A stretch of DNA of 64,000 bases from Halarcobacter sp. (lineage in GTDB: Bacteria; Campylobacterota; Campylobacteria; Campylobacterales; Arcobacteraceae). Location of the stretch: positions 2,914,001 through 2,978,000 of the forward strand of contig NZ_OY780939.1 of NCBI RefSeq assembly GCF_963675975.1. The letters are read 5' to 3'. Of the stretch, positions 1-8,336 are shown one piece after another; the first letter of the stretch is position 1; each line of letters starts with the position of its first letter. The notes beneath the pieces were generated by a model. That model saw only the letters and a list, made by a program, of their open reading frames with translations. It searched no databases and was not told where the DNA came from. The position numbers were made by a program, and so were the translations under genes.

Positions 1-649
1 ATATATCTTGATATAAATGTACATAGTGATAAAAAGGATTATATGTAAGTATCCAAGGATATTTTGCTTGGGTAATCTCTTTCATATAAATAATAGGTGT
101 CATCCAAAACCAAAGTTGCAATGCTATTGGTACAACTACTTTAAGGTCTTTTATAAAAGGGGAAAATAAAGATAAAATTACACCAAAACCAAAAGAAAAA
201 ATAACTTGTAAAACCATAATAGGTAATAACCATAAAAAGTTCCAACTTAAAGGATAATCTACTATTAGTAAAAATATCATTCCTAAACACATAGAGATAC
301 AAAATATCAAAAACTCAGTAATAAATACACTGATTTGGTAAGTGTATGCAGGAACATTTATTTTTTTTATAAGCCCTGCTCTTGCTGTAAAAATATTGTG
401 TTGTCTGTTTATAACAGTACTAAATGCTGTCCATGATAAAATACCTGGTACCACATATACACTATAAGCATAAGGATTATCGTAAATATTTCCTTTTAGT
501 TTCATAAGCTCAGAAAAGATGATACTATAAATTGCAATCATAATTATAGGATGTAATATAAACCATAGTTGACCTAAGCCCATACCTACATACCTTTCTT
601 TAAAATCTCTTGCTGCAAATTGAAATGCTAATAAAATATTACGCTTCAC
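1..649 (-). CDS. wzm: ABC-2 type polysaccharide/LPS export permease (Wzm-like), 3' end outside window
   Basis: Reading the minus strand from a GTG at 649 gives an open frame to the window edge (about 216 residues), beginning MKRNILLAFQFAARDFKERY. Hydrophobic segments and the phrases GQLWFILHPI and WFWMTPIIY are typical of ABC-2 permeases that move lipid-linked polysaccharide across the inner membrane. An in-frame TAA lies directly upstream of the GTG, so no longer start is possible. The start overlaps the end of the upstream transferase gene by 11 bases, implying coupled translation. The partner ATPase (Wzt) should lie beyond the left edge. The family call is by recognised sequence pattern; substrate is inferred from the neighbours. 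Confidence 0.85.
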   Translation of the reverse strand, partial: MKRNILLAFQFAARDFKERYVGMGLGQLWFILHPIIMIAIYSIIFSELMKLKGNIYDNPYAYSVYVVPGILSWTAFSTVINRQHNIFTARAGLIKKINVPAYTYQISVFITEFLIFCISMCLGMIFLLIVDYPLSWNFLWLLPIMVLQVIFSFGFGVILSLFSPFIKDLKVVVPIALQLWFWMTPIIYMKEITQAKYPWILTYNPFYHYVHLYQDI

Positions 650-1670
650 TTATTACCTTTTTAAATAGACTTATATGCTCCAATGCAGAGTTTTGCCAGT
701 CAAATTTTGAAGATTGCATTTTACCTTTATTTACCAAAGACTCTTGTAAAGCATTATCTTCATATAGTGTTTTTATTTTGTTTTTTATATCATCAACATC
801 ATAAGGGTTGCAATATAAAGCTGAGTCTTGTGCTACTTCTTTTAAAGAGGAGGTGTTAGAGCAAATAACAGGAGTCATACAAGAAAAGCTTTCTAAAATA
901 GGTAAACCAAAACCTTCATAAAATGAAGGGTAGATAAATATCTTTGAGCTTTGATATAGTTCAACTAAGCTTTGGTTGTCAACATTTTCTAAAAAATATA
1001 TATTTGAATTTGATTTTGCTTGTTTTAATAGCTCATAAGTGTTTTTATCTAGTTTAAAATTTGAGGAAAAATTTCCTACTATTTTTAACTTTAGAGTATT
1101 TGAATTTAGTGAGATAAAAGCTTTAATTAAATTATTGAAATTTTTTCTTTTGTTTAAACTACCTACATATAAAATCTGGTTTTGTTTTTTTATTTTTTTA
1201 TTTTCTTTAAAGATAGGGTCAACACCATTGTAGATAACCTCAATTTTATTTTTTATATTTGGATAGTATTTTGTTATTTGATTTTTTGAATAGTTTGAAA
1301 CGGTTATAATTTTATTTGCTCTTTTTATGTTAAATGGTACTAAAAAATTGTAATAAAATCTAAAAAACGAAGAAAAACTATCTTTATATGTGATGAATGA
1401 AACATCATGTAAAGTTAGTATTAATTTTATTTTATTAGGTAAAAAAATTGGTGCAATATTTGCTGGACAAAAAAGGATATCGTGATTAAATATTTTAAAG
1501 GGCAAAATAAAATGCTCCCAAAAATGTCTATAATATTTGTTTTTGTATTTTGGTTTAGCTATTGTGATATTGCAAGTGTTTGGGATATTTGCTATTATAG
1601 ATTTTGCATAGTTTTCTACACCTGTAGCTAGGTCATGGGTTAATACCCTTGCGTCTATTAAAATTTTCAT
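639..1670 (-). CDS. Glycosyltransferase family 4 (mannosyltransferase-like)
   Basis: A 343-residue GT-B retaining transferase of the GT4 type. The N-terminus (MKILIDARVL...GVENYAKSI) and the C-terminal nucleotide-sugar motif YEGFGLPILE at residues 251-260, which supplies the EX7E glutamates (E252, E260), are classic. It probably adds mannose or a similar sugar to a lipid-linked polysaccharide at the cytoplasmic face; GDP-mannose is supplied by manC/manB in the same gene run. It overlaps the preceding transferase by 4 bases and the export permease by 11, so all three look co-transcribed. The sugar specificity is inference. Confidence 0.85.
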   Translation of the reverse strand: MKILIDARVLTHDLATGVENYAKSIIANIPNTCNITIAKPKYKNKYYRHFWEHFILPFKIFNHDILFCPANIAPIFLPNKIKLILTLHDVSFITYKDSFSSFFRFYYNFLVPFNIKRANKIITVSNYSKNQITKYYPNIKNKIEVIYNGVDPIFKENKKIKKQNQILYVGSLNKRKNFNNLIKAFISLNSNTLKLKIVGNFSSNFKLDKNTYELLKQAKSNSNIYFLENVDNQSLVELYQSSKIFIYPSFYEGFGLPILESFSCMTPVICSNTSSLKEVAQDSALYCNPYDVDDIKNKIKTLYEDNALQESLVNKGKMQSSKFDWQNSALEHISLFKKVISEA

Positions 1671-2818
1671 ATTTTTTTATTTTTTTCAATATATGAGATT
1701 AGATCTTTAAAACAGATTTCACTATTAAAATATTTTGATATGTAGTTTATAGAGTTTTTTGATAGATTTTCTCTAAAGTTTTCAGAGATAGTTAATGATA
1801 ATATTTTTTCTATCCACTCATCTTTTGTATTTGCCAAAAGAAAAGAGCTGTTGATTTGCTTTTCTAATCCTTTTGAACCTTCATTTGTAGTTATTAAAGG
1901 GATTCCATATGCCAAGGCTTCAATATTTTTTATTTTTAATCCACCACCCATTTGAACTGGATTTATAGCTATTGTAGCTGATTCATAAGCTTTTGTTAGA
2001 TTATCAATTTTCCCATGTAAAAGTATATTTGTATATTTTTCTTCATATGGTTTTAGAGCTTTTGATACTTCTCCATATATATTTAAATATAAGTTTTCTA
2101 TATCTGCAAAAAAAATCCAAACATTATCAATAAACCATTTAATAGAAGTATTATTTGCAATACTAAACCCTGCTATAAAAATTATATTTTTATTTTTTGG
2201 TGATTTTAAAAGTAGATTTTCTGTTTTTACAGGATGTGGACAACAGATACTTTTAATATTTTTTTCAAGTAAATATTTGTGCTCAACTTTTTGGATACAA
2301 ATTACTTTATCATAACAAGCCAATATTTTTAGCTCTTGCTCTTCACTTATATCTATCCAATGTTTTTGATTGTTTTTTTTAAAAGATTCATTTCTTTTAT
2401 TCATTATGTCATGGGTATCTAAAATAGTTATATAATTTTTTAATAAGGGCAAGAGATATGATAGTTTTATATATTCTACAATAACATGTGAAAAATTGTT
2501 TTTGTTTAGTAGTGTCTGAGTTTTTGATACGGTTTTTTTATTATGAAACTGTTCAATAACTGGGTTATCACTTAAAAAACTATTTACTTCTTCTAGATTG
2601 TATGTTGATTCTTCAAGATTTTCTATAAATATTATATTGTGATCTAAAAGTTCAATATATTTATCATCTTCTTCTATTTTTTCTTTTGTATATGCAATTG
2701 TAAGTTTATAATTATGTTTTAGATATTCAATAAGTGCAAATACTCTTTGATGACTTCCTATCTCTTGTTTCCAATAGTTTACATCTGTGATAAGTAATAT
2801 GTTATATGTTTTTTCCAA
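1667..2818 (-). CDS. Glycosyltransferase, GT-B fold (GT4-like)
   Basis: A 383-residue protein with an N-terminal Rossmann-type half (NILLITDVNYWKQEIGSHQR) and a C-terminal nucleotide-sugar half around residues 291-311 (GGGLKIKNIEALAYGIPLI), the pattern of Glycos_transf_1-type enzymes. The invariant EX7E of canonical GT4 proteins is less clear here, so the exact family is uncertain. It sits between another GT4 gene (4-base overlap) and a capsule-type transferase (2-base gap), so it very likely contributes one linkage of the same glycan. Acceptor and donor cannot be read from the sequence. Confidence 0.75.
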   Translation of the reverse strand: MEKTYNILLITDVNYWKQEIGSHQRVFALIEYLKHNYKLTIAYTKEKIEEDDKYIELLDHNIIFIENLEESTYNLEEVNSFLSDNPVIEQFHNKKTVSKTQTLLNKNNFSHVIVEYIKLSYLLPLLKNYITILDTHDIMNKRNESFKKNNQKHWIDISEEQELKILACYDKVICIQKVEHKYLLEKNIKSICCPHPVKTENLLLKSPKNKNIIFIAGFSIANNTSIKWFIDNVWIFFADIENLYLNIYGEVSKALKPYEEKYTNILLHGKIDNLTKAYESATIAINPVQMGGGLKIKNIEALAYGIPLITTNEGSKGLEKQINSSFLLANTKDEWIEKILSLTISENFRENLSKNSINYISKYFNSEICFKDLISYIEKNKKI

Positions 2819-2820
2819 AT

Positions 2821-3675
2821 TTAGCCTATTTTTATTTTTGAAATAAGATATTTAATTTTTGTTTTTATTATATCTTTTAATACTATTTCATCATTTATTT
2901 GATTGTATCCCCAAAAATCATTTAATGATTTTCGTAATCTATTTTGTACAAAAGGTAATTTTATATTTTGGTCATCTGTATCTAAAATATCTGCCCAAAA
3001 TTTTGAATCAAAATAATCTGCATATATCCCTATATCATTTGTATCAAAATCAAAATATTGTTTATAAAGAAAAGTCACCTCTTTTTTAAAATATTTAGCC
3101 TCATATAAAACACTAGAGTTAAGGCCCACTACATGTTTGATTTTATCATTTGCCAAAAGATGGTAAATATTATCTAGTGTGATTTTAATATTGGGAAAAT
3201 TCTTTTTTAAAATCTTAATCACCTTTTTATTATTTTTTGCATAAGGGTGGGGTTTGAAATATATATTTGTGTAATTTGATGAAATTGATTTTATTTCATC
3301 AATATAATCAGTTATTGAGTGATATTTCTTTCCATCAAATATAACTTTATCCATAGATGTTTGACCCACTAATAACAAAGAGTTTTCTTTGATTTTATCA
3401 TGTTTTACTGTTTTGAGATATGTTGCTTTTACAAGATCAGCATAGTAATAAAAAATTTTATAATCTACTTCATATTTTTTTAGACGTTGTTTTATTTTAT
3501 CATCATTTGTTTCAAAATTAAAAAAAATATCATCTGCAAATCTTATTGGATGAATAGAAAGATTTATAGTAGGTTTTTTTTCTTTTAATTTATCTTTTTC
3601 TTCAAAATATATATCTATATTTGTATTTGAAATAAAAGTTGAAAACAACTGCTTTAACCATAATGTATGCTTCAT
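2821..3675 (-). CDS. Capsule-biosynthesis-type transferase (KpsC/KpsS-like half), putative
   Basis: A 284-residue protein with the core layout of Capsule_synth-type GT-B transferases: a strand plus VGQTSMDK, then KPHPYAKN (the HP motif near mid-protein) and GLNSSVLYEAKYF, which matches the 'NSGVGLLGMLW' position of its neighbours. It is shorter than KpsC/KpsS and the N-terminal half is weakly conserved. It lies in the same run as two clearer members of this fold (3683-5860 and 5920-6957). Alternatives are a sialyl/polysialyltransferase-like GT-B enzyme. The fold is moderately supported; the sugar is unknown. Confidence 0.55.
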   Translation of the reverse strand: MKHTLWLKQLFSTFISNTNIDIYFEEKDKLKEKKPTINLSIHPIRFADDIFFNFETNDDKIKQRLKKYEVDYKIFYYYADLVKATYLKTVKHDKIKENSLLLVGQTSMDKVIFDGKKYHSITDYIDEIKSISSNYTNIYFKPHPYAKNNKKVIKILKKNFPNIKITLDNIYHLLANDKIKHVVGLNSSVLYEAKYFKKEVTFLYKQYFDFDTNDIGIYADYFDSKFWADILDTDDQNIKLPFVQNRLRKSLNDFWGYNQINDEIVLKDIIKTKIKYLISKIKIG

Positions 3676-3682
3676 GCAAAAA

Positions 3683-5860
3683 CTACTTCCAATTTAATAT
3701 TTTTTGTTTTATAAATACAAGCATTTTACCTAAAATAGGTATTTTTTTAATTATTCTTAAACTTGAACTGTTGTGAAAATTTAATGTTTTATAATAATAA
3801 TAAAAATCTTTTTTTGCATATAAACTATCTAAATGGTATTTATATCTATCGAATAATACAGATTGGTGTGAGATTCTAGCTTTTTCACCATTATAATAGT
3901 TGATTTTGCTATCTGTTATATTTCGAATTTTATAAAAATCAATTGAATTTGTTACAGTCATTCTTCCACCATCTTTCCATCTTACTTCTTTAGTTCCAAA
4001 AGTTCCAAAAGAGTAAAACTCTTCAAGTAGATAATACAAAAATCTATAAGTTGTTTTAGTATCTGGCTTAAAATTATTGTCTAAATAGTCTAAAAGTTGT
4101 TTAGAAGAAGTGATATTTTTATTTATTCTATTATCTGAATAAAAAACTTCTCCACAATAATAAACTGGTTTATCCCATAACATACCAAGTAGACCCACTC
4201 CCGAATTTATCAAAAGGATTGCATCTGCTGCATCTAAGAGATCTTTAATATTATGAGAGGAGTATATTGCATTTTCTATTTTCCACGCTTCATCTTCTAA
4301 AGGATGCTTTTTTATAACTACTTTCCAAGTATTATCTATGGTGTTTACTACTTCTTGTACAAGATTAATAAAATTTTCATAAGTTCCAATAGAACCACAA
4401 AAATATGTAATAACTGTATCTGAAGGTCTTTGTAATGGTACAAAAAGAACTTTTTCGGAAGCTTTGATATTTAATTCTTTTTTTAATTTTTCTTTTCCGA
4501 TTCTATCATTTTGTTTTTCTAAAGATATATCTAAATCTTTTTCCTCTTCAATATAATCTAATACTATTTTTTCTTGTTCATTGTTTATTGGTTTATCCCA
4601 ATGAATTGAATCGTAACTTGAACTTTCTGCATTAAACCCATTGTAATCAAAAAATACAGAATCTCTTAAAGCACCTCTTTCTGCAATAATAACTTCAATA
4701 TTTTCTTTTTTTAATAATTTGTAAAGTTCTAAACGCTTATCTGTACCATAAGGATTAAACATCAAAACTCTTGAGATATTTTTTTCTTGAATATAATTAA
4801 AAATTGAACTTACACTTGTATTATTTTCATCTAAATAGTGGATTTTTCCTAAAAGTGGTAAAACTTTCCTATTATATATAAAAGGGTTAGTTTTTGAAAA
4901 TAAAAGGGTTGAACCTTTGTCTAAAGAGGGTAAAGGTTCAGGTTCTTTTTTATCATAAAAAAAGTCTTTTTGTTTTTTTTCAAAAAGCTCTTTGTTTTTC
5001 TCTTTTCCTTGTATATAATCAGATTGTTCATCAACTTCATGCCAAATATGAAAAAGAACTATACCTTTATGAAAACTCATATCTCCATAAAGTCTGTAAA
5101 TACTTTTCCAACCCTTATATTGAACTACATTTTGGAAATTTTGATAATCTAAAAAATGGTTTGAAGGCATAGGGAATTTTTTTGAAGAATAGATCATTCT
5201 ACAGTTAAATTCTAAATCTTCATATCCCCATTTTTCAAAATCTTCATCATAACCTCCGTGGGAAAGATAATCATGTCTGTTGTATACATTTACAGAGGTA
5301 CCTGTTGAAAACTTTTCAATATAATCTTTATCATCTTCGAATAGTTTTTGAAGAAAAAGGTTTTTTCTTAAATCTTCATTTGTATTAAAAAAAAGTTCTT
5401 TACCTAATTTTTCAGTTAAATATATTGCTCCAAACATCAAAAAGTCATTTGAATATTTATCTAAATTTGAAATTTTTATTTCATTTAAAACATCATTATA
5501 AAAGCCATTGTATGGATATAAATCTACATCCATAAACATTATATATTTTGATATAGAGTGGATTGCACCAATATTTCTTGCCCTTGACATACAGATATTA
5601 GAATTTTGACTTTTGATATGTATATAGTTGATATTTGATTCTTCACATATTTGTTTATGCTTTAGATGCTCTTTTTCTTCTGAGCCATCATCAACTACTA
5701 AAAAGTCAACTTTTTGTTTGTCTAATAAGTTATCAGATATAGAATATGTAAGTCTGCTTGAGATATCTCTATTTTTTGTAGCACGTATAGGAATTATAAC
5801 TGTTAAAAGTGCTGTTTTATTTAATTTTTTTTCAATATTGTAAGTTTGAATTTCGTACAT
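3683..5860 (-). CDS. Bimodular transferase: N-terminal GT2 (GT-A) plus C-terminal KpsC/KpsS-like domain
   Basis: A 725-residue fusion. Residues 1 to about 300 form a GT-A domain: TVIIPIR start, DDGS, the metal-binding DVD in MFMDVDLYP, and GGYDEDFEKWGYEDLEF, the galactosyltransferase-type C-cap. From about 350 onward a second domain carries AERGALRDS, PLQRPSDTV, KKHPLEDEA and LINSGVGLLGMLW, typical of capsule-type (KpsC/KpsS) Kdo transferases. This C-terminal part is closely similar over its whole length to the stand-alone downstream-strand neighbour at 5920-6957. A protein with two transferase modules could add two sugars in sequence or a sugar plus a terminating residue. Domain assignment is from motifs; function as chain terminator is inferred. 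Confidence 0.75.
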   Translation of the reverse strand: MYEIQTYNIEKKLNKTALLTVIIPIRATKNRDISSRLTYSISDNLLDKQKVDFLVVDDGSEEKEHLKHKQICEESNINYIHIKSQNSNICMSRARNIGAIHSISKYIMFMDVDLYPYNGFYNDVLNEIKISNLDKYSNDFLMFGAIYLTEKLGKELFFNTNEDLRKNLFLQKLFEDDKDYIEKFSTGTSVNVYNRHDYLSHGGYDEDFEKWGYEDLEFNCRMIYSSKKFPMPSNHFLDYQNFQNVVQYKGWKSIYRLYGDMSFHKGIVLFHIWHEVDEQSDYIQGKEKNKELFEKKQKDFFYDKKEPEPLPSLDKGSTLLFSKTNPFIYNRKVLPLLGKIHYLDENNTSVSSIFNYIQEKNISRVLMFNPYGTDKRLELYKLLKKENIEVIIAERGALRDSVFFDYNGFNAESSSYDSIHWDKPINNEQEKIVLDYIEEEKDLDISLEKQNDRIGKEKLKKELNIKASEKVLFVPLQRPSDTVITYFCGSIGTYENFINLVQEVVNTIDNTWKVVIKKHPLEDEAWKIENAIYSSHNIKDLLDAADAILLINSGVGLLGMLWDKPVYYCGEVFYSDNRINKNITSSKQLLDYLDNNFKPDTKTTYRFLYYLLEEFYSFGTFGTKEVRWKDGGRMTVTNSIDFYKIRNITDSKINYYNGEKARISHQSVLFDRYKYHLDSLYAKKDFYYYYKTLNFHNSSSLRIIKKIPILGKMLVFIKQKILNWK

Positions 5861-5919
5861 ATATAAAGTATTCTCTATTTTAATAAGATGGGGATTATTT
5901 TATCCAAAAAAGCTTAATT

Positions 5920-6957
5920 TTAAATATACTTAGCAGTATTTATGTAATTTGAGATATTATTTATTTTATAAAAATTTATTTTTGTTGTGATTGTCCGTTT
6001 TGAATTGTCTTCTAATGTTATTTCTTCTGTAAAGAATTTTCCAAAAGAGTAAAATTCATCAATTAAATATGAGATAAATCTTTCTACTTTTTGTTTATCA
6101 ACTTTTAAGTGATTGTTCTTTAGAAAATCAACCACTTCATTTGATGTTTTTACTTCTTTGTTTATTGAGGGGTGAGAATAAAAAGCATCTCCAAAATGGT
6201 AAACTGGTTTTGAATACATCATAGAGATGAGTCCAACTCCTGAATTTATTAAAACAATAGAATCACAAAGTTCTATTAAATCTTTAAAATGGGTGTCATC
6301 ATCAACATAAAATAATTTGTCTTCATAAAGTCTTTGGGTTTCCAAAGGGTGTTTCTTTACTAAAACAAGCCAATTATCTTTTAGTTTATTTTGAATATCA
6401 ATAATATTTTCAAGAAAGTTTTCCATTTTTTTAACATTTTTAGAAAAATATTTTATAACGGTGTCTGAGGGTCTTTGTAAAGGAACAAAAAGTATTTTTT
6501 TATTTGAAGATATATTTAGTTTTTTTCTTAACTTTTCTTTGCCTATTCTTTTAGATTGTTTTTCCAAAGAGCTTTCGCTTTTTATCTCATTTTGAATATA
6601 TTCTTGTACTTTTTGCTTTTTTAACAAAGATAGGGGTTTATCCCAATATTTAGGGTGATAGGAAGTGCTTTCTGCATTAAATCCATTTGGATCAAAAAAC
6701 CAAGAGTTTGGTAAGGCTCCCCTATCAGAAATCAAAAGTTTTATATTATTTTTTTTTAAATATTTATATATATTTAATCTTTTTTCATTTTGAAAAGGGT
6801 TTTGAATAACAACAATATCTATTTTATTTGTTTTTATAAAATCTAATATATTTTTCGTATTTAAATCATATTCGTTAAAAGTAAATTTTTTCTTAAAAAA
6901 TATATCAATATCACATAAGGCTTTATATTCTTTTTTCCATAAATAAAGTACATTCAT
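5920..6957 (-). CDS. Capsular polysaccharide-type (KpsC/KpsS-like) transferase, single domain
   Basis: A 345-residue protein sharing the blocks SDRGALPNSWFFD, GFNAESTSYH, FVPLQRPSDTVIKYF, KKHPLETQ and LINSGVGLISMMYSKPVYHFGDAFY with the C-terminal half of the gene immediately downstream (3683-5860). The HP motif and the NSGVG loop are the hallmark of this GT-B family, which in capsules and some ABC-exported O antigens transfers Kdo. It is 9 bases downstream of manC. The two paralogues probably arose by duplication, followed by fusion of one copy to a GT2 domain. Donor sugar not proven. Confidence 0.7.
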   Translation of the reverse strand: MNVLYLWKKEYKALCDIDIFFKKKFTFNEYDLNTKNILDFIKTNKIDIVVIQNPFQNEKRLNIYKYLKKNNIKLLISDRGALPNSWFFDPNGFNAESTSYHPKYWDKPLSLLKKQKVQEYIQNEIKSESSLEKQSKRIGKEKLRKKLNISSNKKILFVPLQRPSDTVIKYFSKNVKKMENFLENIIDIQNKLKDNWLVLVKKHPLETQRLYEDKLFYVDDDTHFKDLIELCDSIVLINSGVGLISMMYSKPVYHFGDAFYSHPSINKEVKTSNEVVDFLKNNHLKVDKQKVERFISYLIDEFYSFGKFFTEEITLEDNSKRTITTKINFYKINNISNYINTAKYI

Positions 6958-6965
6958 AAAATATT

Positions 6966-8336
6966 TTATCTTTTAAAATCATCATCAAGTCTTACTATAT
7001 CATCTTCACCGGTATATTCACCTACTTGTGCTTCTATAAGAATAATTGGTATTTTACCATCATTTGCTAATCTATGAACTTCGCCCATTTTTATATATGT
7101 TGATTCATTTGGTTTTAAATAACTTGTTTTATCTCCAATTGTAACAGTAGCTATACCACTTACAACTATCCAGTGTTCATTTCTATGGTAGTGTTTTTGT
7201 AAAGATAATCTTTTCCCTGGTTTTACTTCAATTTTTTTTATTTTATACCCTTTAGTATCTTCTAAAACAGTATAAGTTCCCCAAGGTCTATGTACTTTCA
7301 GATGTATATTTTGAAGCGTGTGGTCTAAATCTTTTAATTTTTTTACAATTGTTTTTACTTTTTGAGAGCTTCCTCTTTTTGAGACTAATAAAGCATCTGC
7401 TGTATCAACTATAATCAAATCATCTACATCAATAGTAGCAATTTTTCTTTCTACTCCATAAATCAAATTATTTTTAGAATCACAAGATATATGGTTTGGA
7501 TTTTGAGTATTGCCAGATTCATCTTTTGGCAATTCATCATACAAAGAATCAAAACTTCCTAAATCTGTCCATTGTATATCGGAAGGTATAACTTTAACTA
7601 TTGAGCTTTTTTCCATAACTGCATAATCTATACTATCTTCAGGTATTTTTTCCATATCTTCAAATTTAATTCTTATCATCTCATCATTTTTTGCATTTTC
7701 ATATGCTTTTAACGAGGCTTCATAAACCTTTGGAGAGTATTTTTTAAGTTCATCTAAGAATACTCCTGCTTTAAAACAAAACATACCACTATTCCAAAAA
7801 TAGTTGCCATGTTCAAAATATAAATTTGCAGTTTTTTCATCTGGTTTTTCATGAAAAGCTTTTACATCAAAATCATTTGCTTCTATATATCCAAAACCTG
7901 TTTCAGGGTATGTTGGAGTTATTCCAAAAGTTACTAAGTTATTTTGTAAAGCTAACTCTTTTCCTGATTGAAGTACTTTTTCATATTCTTTTTGATTTTT
8001 TATTAAATGATCACTTGGGGTTACTAATAATATTTCATCATAAGCTAATGCAAAACAAGCTAAAGCTATTGCAGGTGCTGTGTTTCTAGCTAGTGGCTCT
8101 AAAAGATATTTTGAGTTTTTTGATAAATCTAATTCTTCTAATTGATCTAATGCTAAAAAATATTGTTCAGAATTTGATACAATAAAAGTTTGTGAACATA
8201 AACTTTTATTTCTTTTTACGGTTGATTGAAATAGTGATTGATTGTCAAACATTTTTACAAATTGTTTAGGCATCAAAGTTCTACTAATAGGCCATAACCT
8301 TGTACCATTTCCACCACATAAAATTATATTAGTCAT
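6966..8336 (-). CDS. manC: Mannose-1-phosphate guanylyltransferase / mannose-6-phosphate isomerase
   Basis: A 456-residue bifunctional type II enzyme. The N-terminal nucleotidyltransferase has the signature CGGNGTRLWPISRTLMPKQF at residues 7-26 and LLVTPSDHLI; the C-terminal cupin (from about residue 345) has RPWGTYTVLE, KPGKRLSLQKHYHRNEHW and GEYTGEDDIVRL, which bind the isomerase zinc. It makes GDP-mannose from mannose-1-phosphate and can also interconvert fructose-6-P and mannose-6-P. The phosphomannomutase gene lies just upstream in the same direction, giving a complete GDP-mannose route. Length is slightly below the usual 470-480. Confidence 0.95.
   Translation of the reverse strand: MTNIILCGGNGTRLWPISRTLMPKQFVKMFDNQSLFQSTVKRNKSLCSQTFIVSNSEQYFLALDQLEELDLSKNSKYLLEPLARNTAPAIALACFALAYDEILLVTPSDHLIKNQKEYEKVLQSGKELALQNNLVTFGITPTYPETGFGYIEANDFDVKAFHEKPDEKTANLYFEHGNYFWNSGMFCFKAGVFLDELKKYSPKVYEASLKAYENAKNDEMIRIKFEDMEKIPEDSIDYAVMEKSSIVKVIPSDIQWTDLGSFDSLYDELPKDESGNTQNPNHISCDSKNNLIYGVERKIATIDVDDLIIVDTADALLVSKRGSSQKVKTIVKKLKDLDHTLQNIHLKVHRPWGTYTVLEDTKGYKIKKIEVKPGKRLSLQKHYHRNEHWIVVSGIATVTIGDKTSYLKPNESTYIKMGEVHRLANDGKIPIILIEAQVGEYTGEDDIVRLDDDFKR

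Follow-up and report, generated by a model that had tools for sequence, protein, structure and literature searches.

A 64,000-nucleotide stretch of the Halarcobacter sp. genome (hereafter the window; positions 2914001-2978000 of contig NZ_OY780939.1, a single-contig genome of 3.27 Mb) carries three genes, A, B and C, whose products resemble enzymes that transfer 3-deoxy-D-manno-oct-2-ulosonic acid (Kdo). Our main subject is protein B, in which a family 2 glycosyltransferase (GT2) domain is joined to a second domain related to the capsule enzyme KpsS. All three genes lie on the minus strand in the open reading frame (ORF) list of the window, at the coordinates first given for them:

3683..5860, minus strand: protein B, 725 aa; GT2 domain (PF10111), KpsS-like Kdo-transferase-type domain and basic C-terminal tail
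4967..5803, minus strand: GT2 domain of B, residues 20-298, with MDVD at 110-113 and WGYED at 211-215 (Pfam, VIA-align)
3911..4831, minus strand: KpsS-like domain of B, residues 344-650, with E394-R-G, QRPSD at 477-481, KKHP at 517-520 and NSGVG at 552-556
5920..6957, minus strand: protein C, 345 aa; stand-alone KpsS-like Kdo-transferase-type domain with D78-R-G, QRPSD at 161-165 and KKHP at 201-204
2821..3675, minus strand: protein A, 284 aa; shortened GT140 (KrkA-type) homologue of retaining Kdo transferases (phmmer, alignment, motifs)

Domains, fold and motifs of proteins A, B and C

Pfam assigned residues 20-298 of B to PF10111 (E 5.6e-34), including the MDVD motif, and residues 453-612 to Capsule_synth PF05159 (E 7e-8). 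The best VIA-align matches of the GT2 domain were LARGE1 (Z 19.9), heparosan synthase 2 (18.5) and K4 chondroitin polymerase (17.5); GT2 rows also filled the VIA-align result for the whole B model, which says nothing on the second domain. Foldseek searches with the B model (pLDDT 74.5, with residues 630-725 below 50) led from the GT2 half to chondroitin polymerase and heparosan synthase 2, and from the second half to KpsC (6mgd_B, E 1.0e-8) and WbbB. On these matches, B is predicted to hold a hexose-type and a Kdo-type glycosyltransferase in one polypeptide. Among the 103 other genomes of the family, none had a close homologue of B at E 1e-10. A crude home-made heptad score gave no sign of a long coiled coil, as 54/60 shuffles equalled or beat B over a 42-residue window and 6/100 over a 28-residue window.

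Protein C, which is 47% identical to residues 344-650 of B, matched PF05159 at E 3.3e-11 and the NCBIfam KpsS model at E 6.2e-13 (48.8 bits, far below the 600-bit cut-off). Profile comparison by hhalign aligned C with KpsS over 264 columns (probability 99.2, E 1.6e-19), and comparison with KpsC gave E 9.3e-8. The AlphaFold2 model of C (pLDDT 86.9, built from 11 sequences) was closest to KpsC 6mgd_B (Z 20.2, 262 residues, 3.2 A), followed by WbbB (Z 17.6), the first other GT-B structure (13.8) and KrkA (12.4). The tree did not show C to be a recent duplicate of the B domain: it grouped B with the homologue from L008 (98/74) and left C unplaced near the base.

Retaining Kdo transferases use the Asp of a QXXXD motif as nucleophile, together with the His of an HP motif and a general-base Glu (PMC9587256, PMC10148158, PMC12887879; papers are cited here by PMC number and from excerpts). 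QXXXD, KxHP and NSGVG were present in 37/37 homologous domains and [DE]RG[AG] in 36/37, in a set that includes B and C, uses L047 to stand for L012 and omits L082. The QXXXD motif spans Q477-D481 in B and Q161-D165 in C, and both proteins have KKHP as the HP motif. At the general-base position, DRGA occurred in 22 domains and ERG[AG] in 14, with one unmatched. In the hhalign alignments B retains Glu (Glu394) at the position of KpsC Glu66, and the position of KpsC Asp67 is Arg in both B and C. Together, the models and motifs support the assignment of the second domain of B and of C to the retaining Kdo-transferase fold (modified GT-B); KpsS, the nearest profile, and KpsC, the nearest fold, are both GT107 and have the QXXXD and HP motifs too.

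Protein A matched PF05159 (E 3.1e-6) and PF07388 (E 3.3e-6), and a phmmer search aligned it with residues 113-353 of KrkA (9yfx), the founder of GT140, at E 1.5e-33. No similarity to B or C was detected by pairwise BLAST (E 0.38-0.41), and kinship appeared at profile level only (hhalign of GT140 against C, probability 65.7, E 5.7e-5). Judged by sequence, A is a GT140 homologue and not a distant KpsC/KpsS paralogue. Its motifs are QTSMD at 105-109, KPHP at 141-144, R45 and E25/E26; residues Q105, D109, H143, P144, R45 and E25 were common to all nine aligned rows (A and eight GT140 homologues). Both the multiple alignment and the phmmer alignment equate D109, H143 and R45 with Asp193, His227 and Arg127 of KrkA, an enzyme of the E. 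coli K13 capsule. E25 aligns with the general base Glu102, but its distance from the Arg strand is 18, compared with 23 in 7/8 homologues (for the eighth, L071, the script caught the wrong motif). Unlike the other eight, A is without the first strand of the N-terminal domain and about 60 residues after its first helix. It starts near the position of N21, is without the K71 segment and without the ribosyltransferase fusion of KrkA, and has no clear counterparts of N21 and K71, two residues that matter in KrkA (PMC12887879). A tblastn search, other frames included, found no upstream remnant of the missing N-terminal half (best E 0.18 over all queries). We therefore file A as a shortened homologue and not as a proven GT140 enzyme; it may represent a minimal enzyme, or its gene may be decaying, and its activity is doubtful.

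GT140 homologues were also found in six plasmid loci, of which L073 and L076 contain kdsA, a CMP-Kdo (cytidine monophosphate-Kdo) synthetase gene and kpsF, L072 contains kpsF, and three contain neither. The homologues in L073 and L076, on Rhodobacterales plasmids, stand alone without a ribosyltransferase fusion. In L072, the Escherichia fergusonii mobilizable plasmid NZ_CP125353.1, the homologue adjoins the KpsF gene, sugar transporter genes and GDP-mannose genes. None was found in viral contigs.

The surrounding locus and its exporter

The genes around A, B and C, all of them on the same strand, are as follows:

1667..2818, minus strand: cassette family 4 glycosyltransferase (GT4; PF13692, E 1.1e-14)
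639..1670, minus strand: cassette GT4 glycosyltransferase (PF00534, E 4.2e-35)
2..649, minus strand: Wzm-type permease of an ATP-binding cassette (ABC) transporter, cut by the window edge and complete at L004:17876-18649 (ABC2_membrane, E 1.1e-17)
6966..8336, minus strand: gene of manC type, right border of the cassette (sequence; phmmer matches from relatives' genes)

The gene at 6966..8336 is presumed to be manC. Beyond wzm, outside the window, comes a gene for a Wzt that ends in a carbohydrate-binding domain (CBD), followed by genes for a hexapeptide-repeat protein and for a methyltransferase-GT4 protein of 702 aa. The window itself also encodes lipopolysaccharide (LPS) functions, namely heptosyltransferases I and II, a lipid A acyltransferase and dTDP-rhamnose genes, along with a protein of the Wzy_C/O-antigen-ligase type. 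The three genes appear to belong to a variable cassette (639-6957) bordered by manC and wzm, within an LPS O-antigen locus of the ABC-transporter-dependent kind.

A, B and C account for all PF05159 matches in the entire genome (n=3). The genome encodes the CMP-Kdo gene kdsB (243.5 bits), and two weaker cytidylyltransferase-type matches lie elsewhere in it. A KpsC query gave no match in the genome, in a search without a positive control, and neither did the KpsE family TIGR01010, whose profile matched just 3/14 controls. With neither protein matched, the genome seems to lack the anchoring and export pathway of capsules.

The first-pass annotation had described three transferases of the KpsC/KpsS fold beside a Wzm permease, one of them fused to a GT2 domain, and had suggested a search for a Wzt with a C-terminal glycan-binding domain just left of the window. 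Much of this was borne out: the domain assignments (PF10111, PF05159) and MDVD motif agree with it, C is a close stand-alone relative of the second domain of B, its model falls within the Kdo-transferase fold and not outside it, and such a Wzt was found. Protein A, which it took for a more distant third relative, is linked to B and C by profile, but by sequence it belongs with KrkA. The permease is real, but the two GT4 genes separate it from A.

The C-terminal domain of this Wzt matched PF14524 (E 1.6e-25) and was related to that of Aquifex aeolicus Wzt at E 5e-29, with 52/136 aligned residues identical (38%). The Aquifex domain binds 3-O-methyl-mannose through a methyl pocket formed by Leu300, Thr346, Ala348 and Trp362 (PMC9445017). 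All four pocket residues are identical in the Halarcobacter protein (L307, T354, A356, W370), and His355 is kept as well. Its nearest solved relative is a reader of 3-O-methyl caps, in a comparison that included no Kdo-cap domain. The methyltransferase-GT4 gene lies beside this wzt, to the left of the window. In the crude heptad score, 11/100 shuffles reached the value of the methyltransferase-GT4 protein over a 28-residue window and 1/60 over 42 residues; the score also flagged a globular-looking region in a relative (L090) and decides nothing here.

The Wzt domain occurred in 7/104 genomes of the family, the source genome included. A methyltransferase lay within the stretch read for five of the six other relatives (L087-L091), the sixth (L092) being a 3.5-kb contig. 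Across the seven Wzt proteins the pocket Trp and Ala were invariant, Leu was kept in four and Thr in two. Queries with the B domains, C, A, KpsC, KpsS and GT140 matched in none (0/6) of the relatives' Wzt stretches. In L090, from the same genus, manC and wzm are 5 bp apart without the cassette, and comparison with the window ORFs showed shared neighbours (phosphomannomutase-, UDP-glucose-dehydrogenase- and heptosyltransferase-like genes). This indicates that C-B-A-GT4-GT4 forms a cassette dispensable to the locus.

Homologous fusions in other genomes

A scan of genome contigs returned five loci, every one a fusion. Among Campylobacterota, 61/397 genomes matched the domain profile at E 1e-10; many of these matches were KpsS-sized proteins of 390-450 aa, and fusions scored far higher. 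Group 2 capsule genes were present within the stretch read in 13 of 34 fusion loci (L008, L009, L010, L012, L048, L049, L050, L052, L062, L067, L068, L069 and L086), a count that omits L047, which duplicates the stretch of L012 (the fusion has 728 aa in each), and L082, a weak match without GT2. In L058 and L059, a protein of 327 aa that weakly matched KpsT was not taken as a kps gene. The other 21 loci showed no group 2 capsule genes within the stretch read; some of them are short stretches, and in many the fusion stands alone among housekeeping genes.

Two capsule loci are informative as to what such fusions make. In L050 the gene order is kpsMTED, fusion, KpsC, KpsS. In L086 a permease and an ATPase are followed by the fusion, an O-acetyltransferase, and then annotated capsular biosynthesis and export proteins, which we read by size and order as KpsS, KpsC, KpsD and KpsE, the KpsS and KpsC also by alignment, with E. 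coli KpsS (77%) and the KpsC N-terminal module (66%) respectively. Pfam found both domains in the L086 fusion, and its C-terminal match to B had E 1e-21. As the fusion is the sole glycosyltransferase besides KpsS and KpsC in the stretches read of both loci, it is suggested to make the capsule repeat. Sinorhizobium pSymB loci with kps-type genes also contain fusions, and several Sinorhizobium capsules consist of hexose-Kdo disaccharide repeats (PMC4881576). The transporter ATPases of capsule loci near B homologues, where seen, are short and without a carbohydrate-binding domain.

Two further observations concern these homologues. L086 is the Citrobacter freundii conjugative IncX5 plasmid NZ_CP056211.1, which appears to carry a complete group 2 capsule locus that has one fusion polymerase. 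In L063 and G283:C101, both from Campylobacterota, the fusion genes are fragmented or have in-frame stops, as if decaying or subject to on/off switching.

A putative sugar-Kdo polymerase and the alternatives

We put at about an even chance the reading that B is a [sugar-Kdo]n polymerase of capsule type within a methyl-capped O-antigen locus. Its two domains would act in alternation, GT2 adding a sugar and the KpsS-like one adding Kdo (or a comparable ulosonic acid), giving a [sugar-Kdo]n backbone. C would probably carry out a further Kdo-type transfer or a priming one. A would be a third Kdo transferase, in either minimal or decaying form. The chain end would probably be a methyl group from the neighbouring methyltransferase-GT4 protein and not a product of A, B or C; the Wzt carbohydrate-binding domain would read this cap, and export would follow. 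A known parallel is CsaA of the Kingella kingae type a capsule, whose GalNAc (N-acetylgalactosamine)-transferase and Kdo-transferase domains are reported to be sufficient for both GalNAc-Kdo linkages (PMC5070880). Like B (725 aa), CsaA (811 aa) is a two-module single protein, but it is a capsule enzyme, whereas B lies in an O-antigen locus with Wzm and a CBD-bearing Wzt. The Aquifex Wzm/Wzt system, with the same methyl pocket, serves a rhamnose/mannose O-antigen chain, and the excerpts of PMC9445017 describe no fused Kdo-type polymerase.

Several points weigh against this reading. The donors, acceptors and products of B are all putative, and the two-module comparison with CsaA rests on its published description. 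The general-base position, Glu in the characterized KpsC and WbbB, is Asp in C (Asp78, at the KpsC Glu66 position and equivalent by hhalign to Glu394 of B) and in 22/36 matching domains. At 47% identity, C might do the same step as the second domain of B. Two of the Aquifex cap contacts differ (His350 to Thr, Asn313 to Ser), and the capped sugar may differ with them. Finally, for many of the fusions in Campylobacterota the stretch read is not a capsule cluster, and some may act otherwise.

More tentatively, a capsule-type GT2/KpsS-like polymerase may have been swapped into an O-antigen locus, which would place Kdo in every backbone repeat and have the chain exported by a transporter that reads a methyl cap in place of the Kdo-lipid anchor on which capsule exporters rely; polymerase and export code would then be modules that the capsule and O-antigen pathways can exchange. 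If so, one polymerase class would serve both capsule-type and O-antigen-type export, and two jobs of Kdo-type transferases that have been thought of together, chain building and chain capping, would be separated. Many GT2/KpsS-like fusions in Campylobacterota and rhizobia would then be predicted to make glycans that contain Kdo or a related sugar, and GT140, a family described only recently, would gain a second, independent context. Our literature searches listed no study of these fusions or of one in an O-antigen locus.

It is less likely that B and C instead prime or link, placing Kdo-type residues between a lipid-linked primer and the chain or in a side branch, with the backbone built and ended by the GT4s and the methyltransferase-GT4 protein. 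The closest profile to B and C is indeed KpsS, the Kdo transferase that initiates capsules, and two cassette GT4 genes plus a third GT4 module in the neighbouring protein are at hand. However, KpsS and KpsC build the capsule lipid anchor, and with no match to KpsC or KpsE this poly-Kdo route looks absent from the genome. L050 and L086 have the fusion in addition to KpsS and KpsC, so that it is no replacement for them.

We consider it improbable that the Kdo-type domains use another CMP-linked ulosonic acid, such as pseudaminic acid (Pse). The GT118 enzyme KpsS1 is reported to be a Pse transferase and to share 30% identity with E. coli KpsS (PMC12887879), repeats with Pse are tabulated for Sinorhizobium capsules (PMC4881576), and the two weaker cytidylyltransferase-type matches could be read in the same direction. 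Yet KpsS1 is said to be without the WbbB-equivalent glutamate (PMC12887879), whereas B has Glu at the KpsC Glu66 position, and in L073 and L076 the GT140 homologues of A are accompanied by kdsA/kdsB.

Also improbable is the proposal of the first-pass annotation that B both extends and caps chains and sets their length before export. In this reading the GT2 domain would extend the chain and the second domain would cap it with Kdo, much as the WbbB protein (GT99-GT102-GT103) of Raoultella/Klebsiella O12 sets chain length by capping. B shares with WbbB the superfamily of its GT99 module, an O-antigen setting and a CBD-bearing Wzt, B has GT2 and Kdo-type modules on one polypeptide, and Kdo caps are known (PMC9445017). 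Against it, the nearest solved relative of the Wzt domain reads a methyl cap, this Wzt has a methyltransferase gene beside it and is accompanied by one in 5/6 relatives, characterized terminators carry a coiled-coil ruler (PMC11231755) of which the crude test found no sign in B, and the homologues in capsule loci, with their short ATPases, look like chain builders. Capping and length-setting by B are not supported, and capping was dropped as the leading reading on the Wzt domain and the locus comparison.

Some features near these loci stand apart from the question of polymerization. The methyltransferases by Wzt at L088:9451-11010, L089:10810-12234 and L090:6192-8663 have long N-terminal extensions that look DUF4214-like by eye. 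Near the O-antigen genes lie a gene for a DUF4214 protein of 1131 aa and genes resembling those of type I secretion (L004:10355-13750 and L004:1327-5682), and large proteins similar to those of L004 adjoin the Wzt of L091; it is conceivable that a surface layer is anchored to the glycan of the O-antigen locus. A single ORF (L004:5694-7064) has matches to a Y1 (IS200-type) transposase as well as to SapC, which is an unusual fusion.

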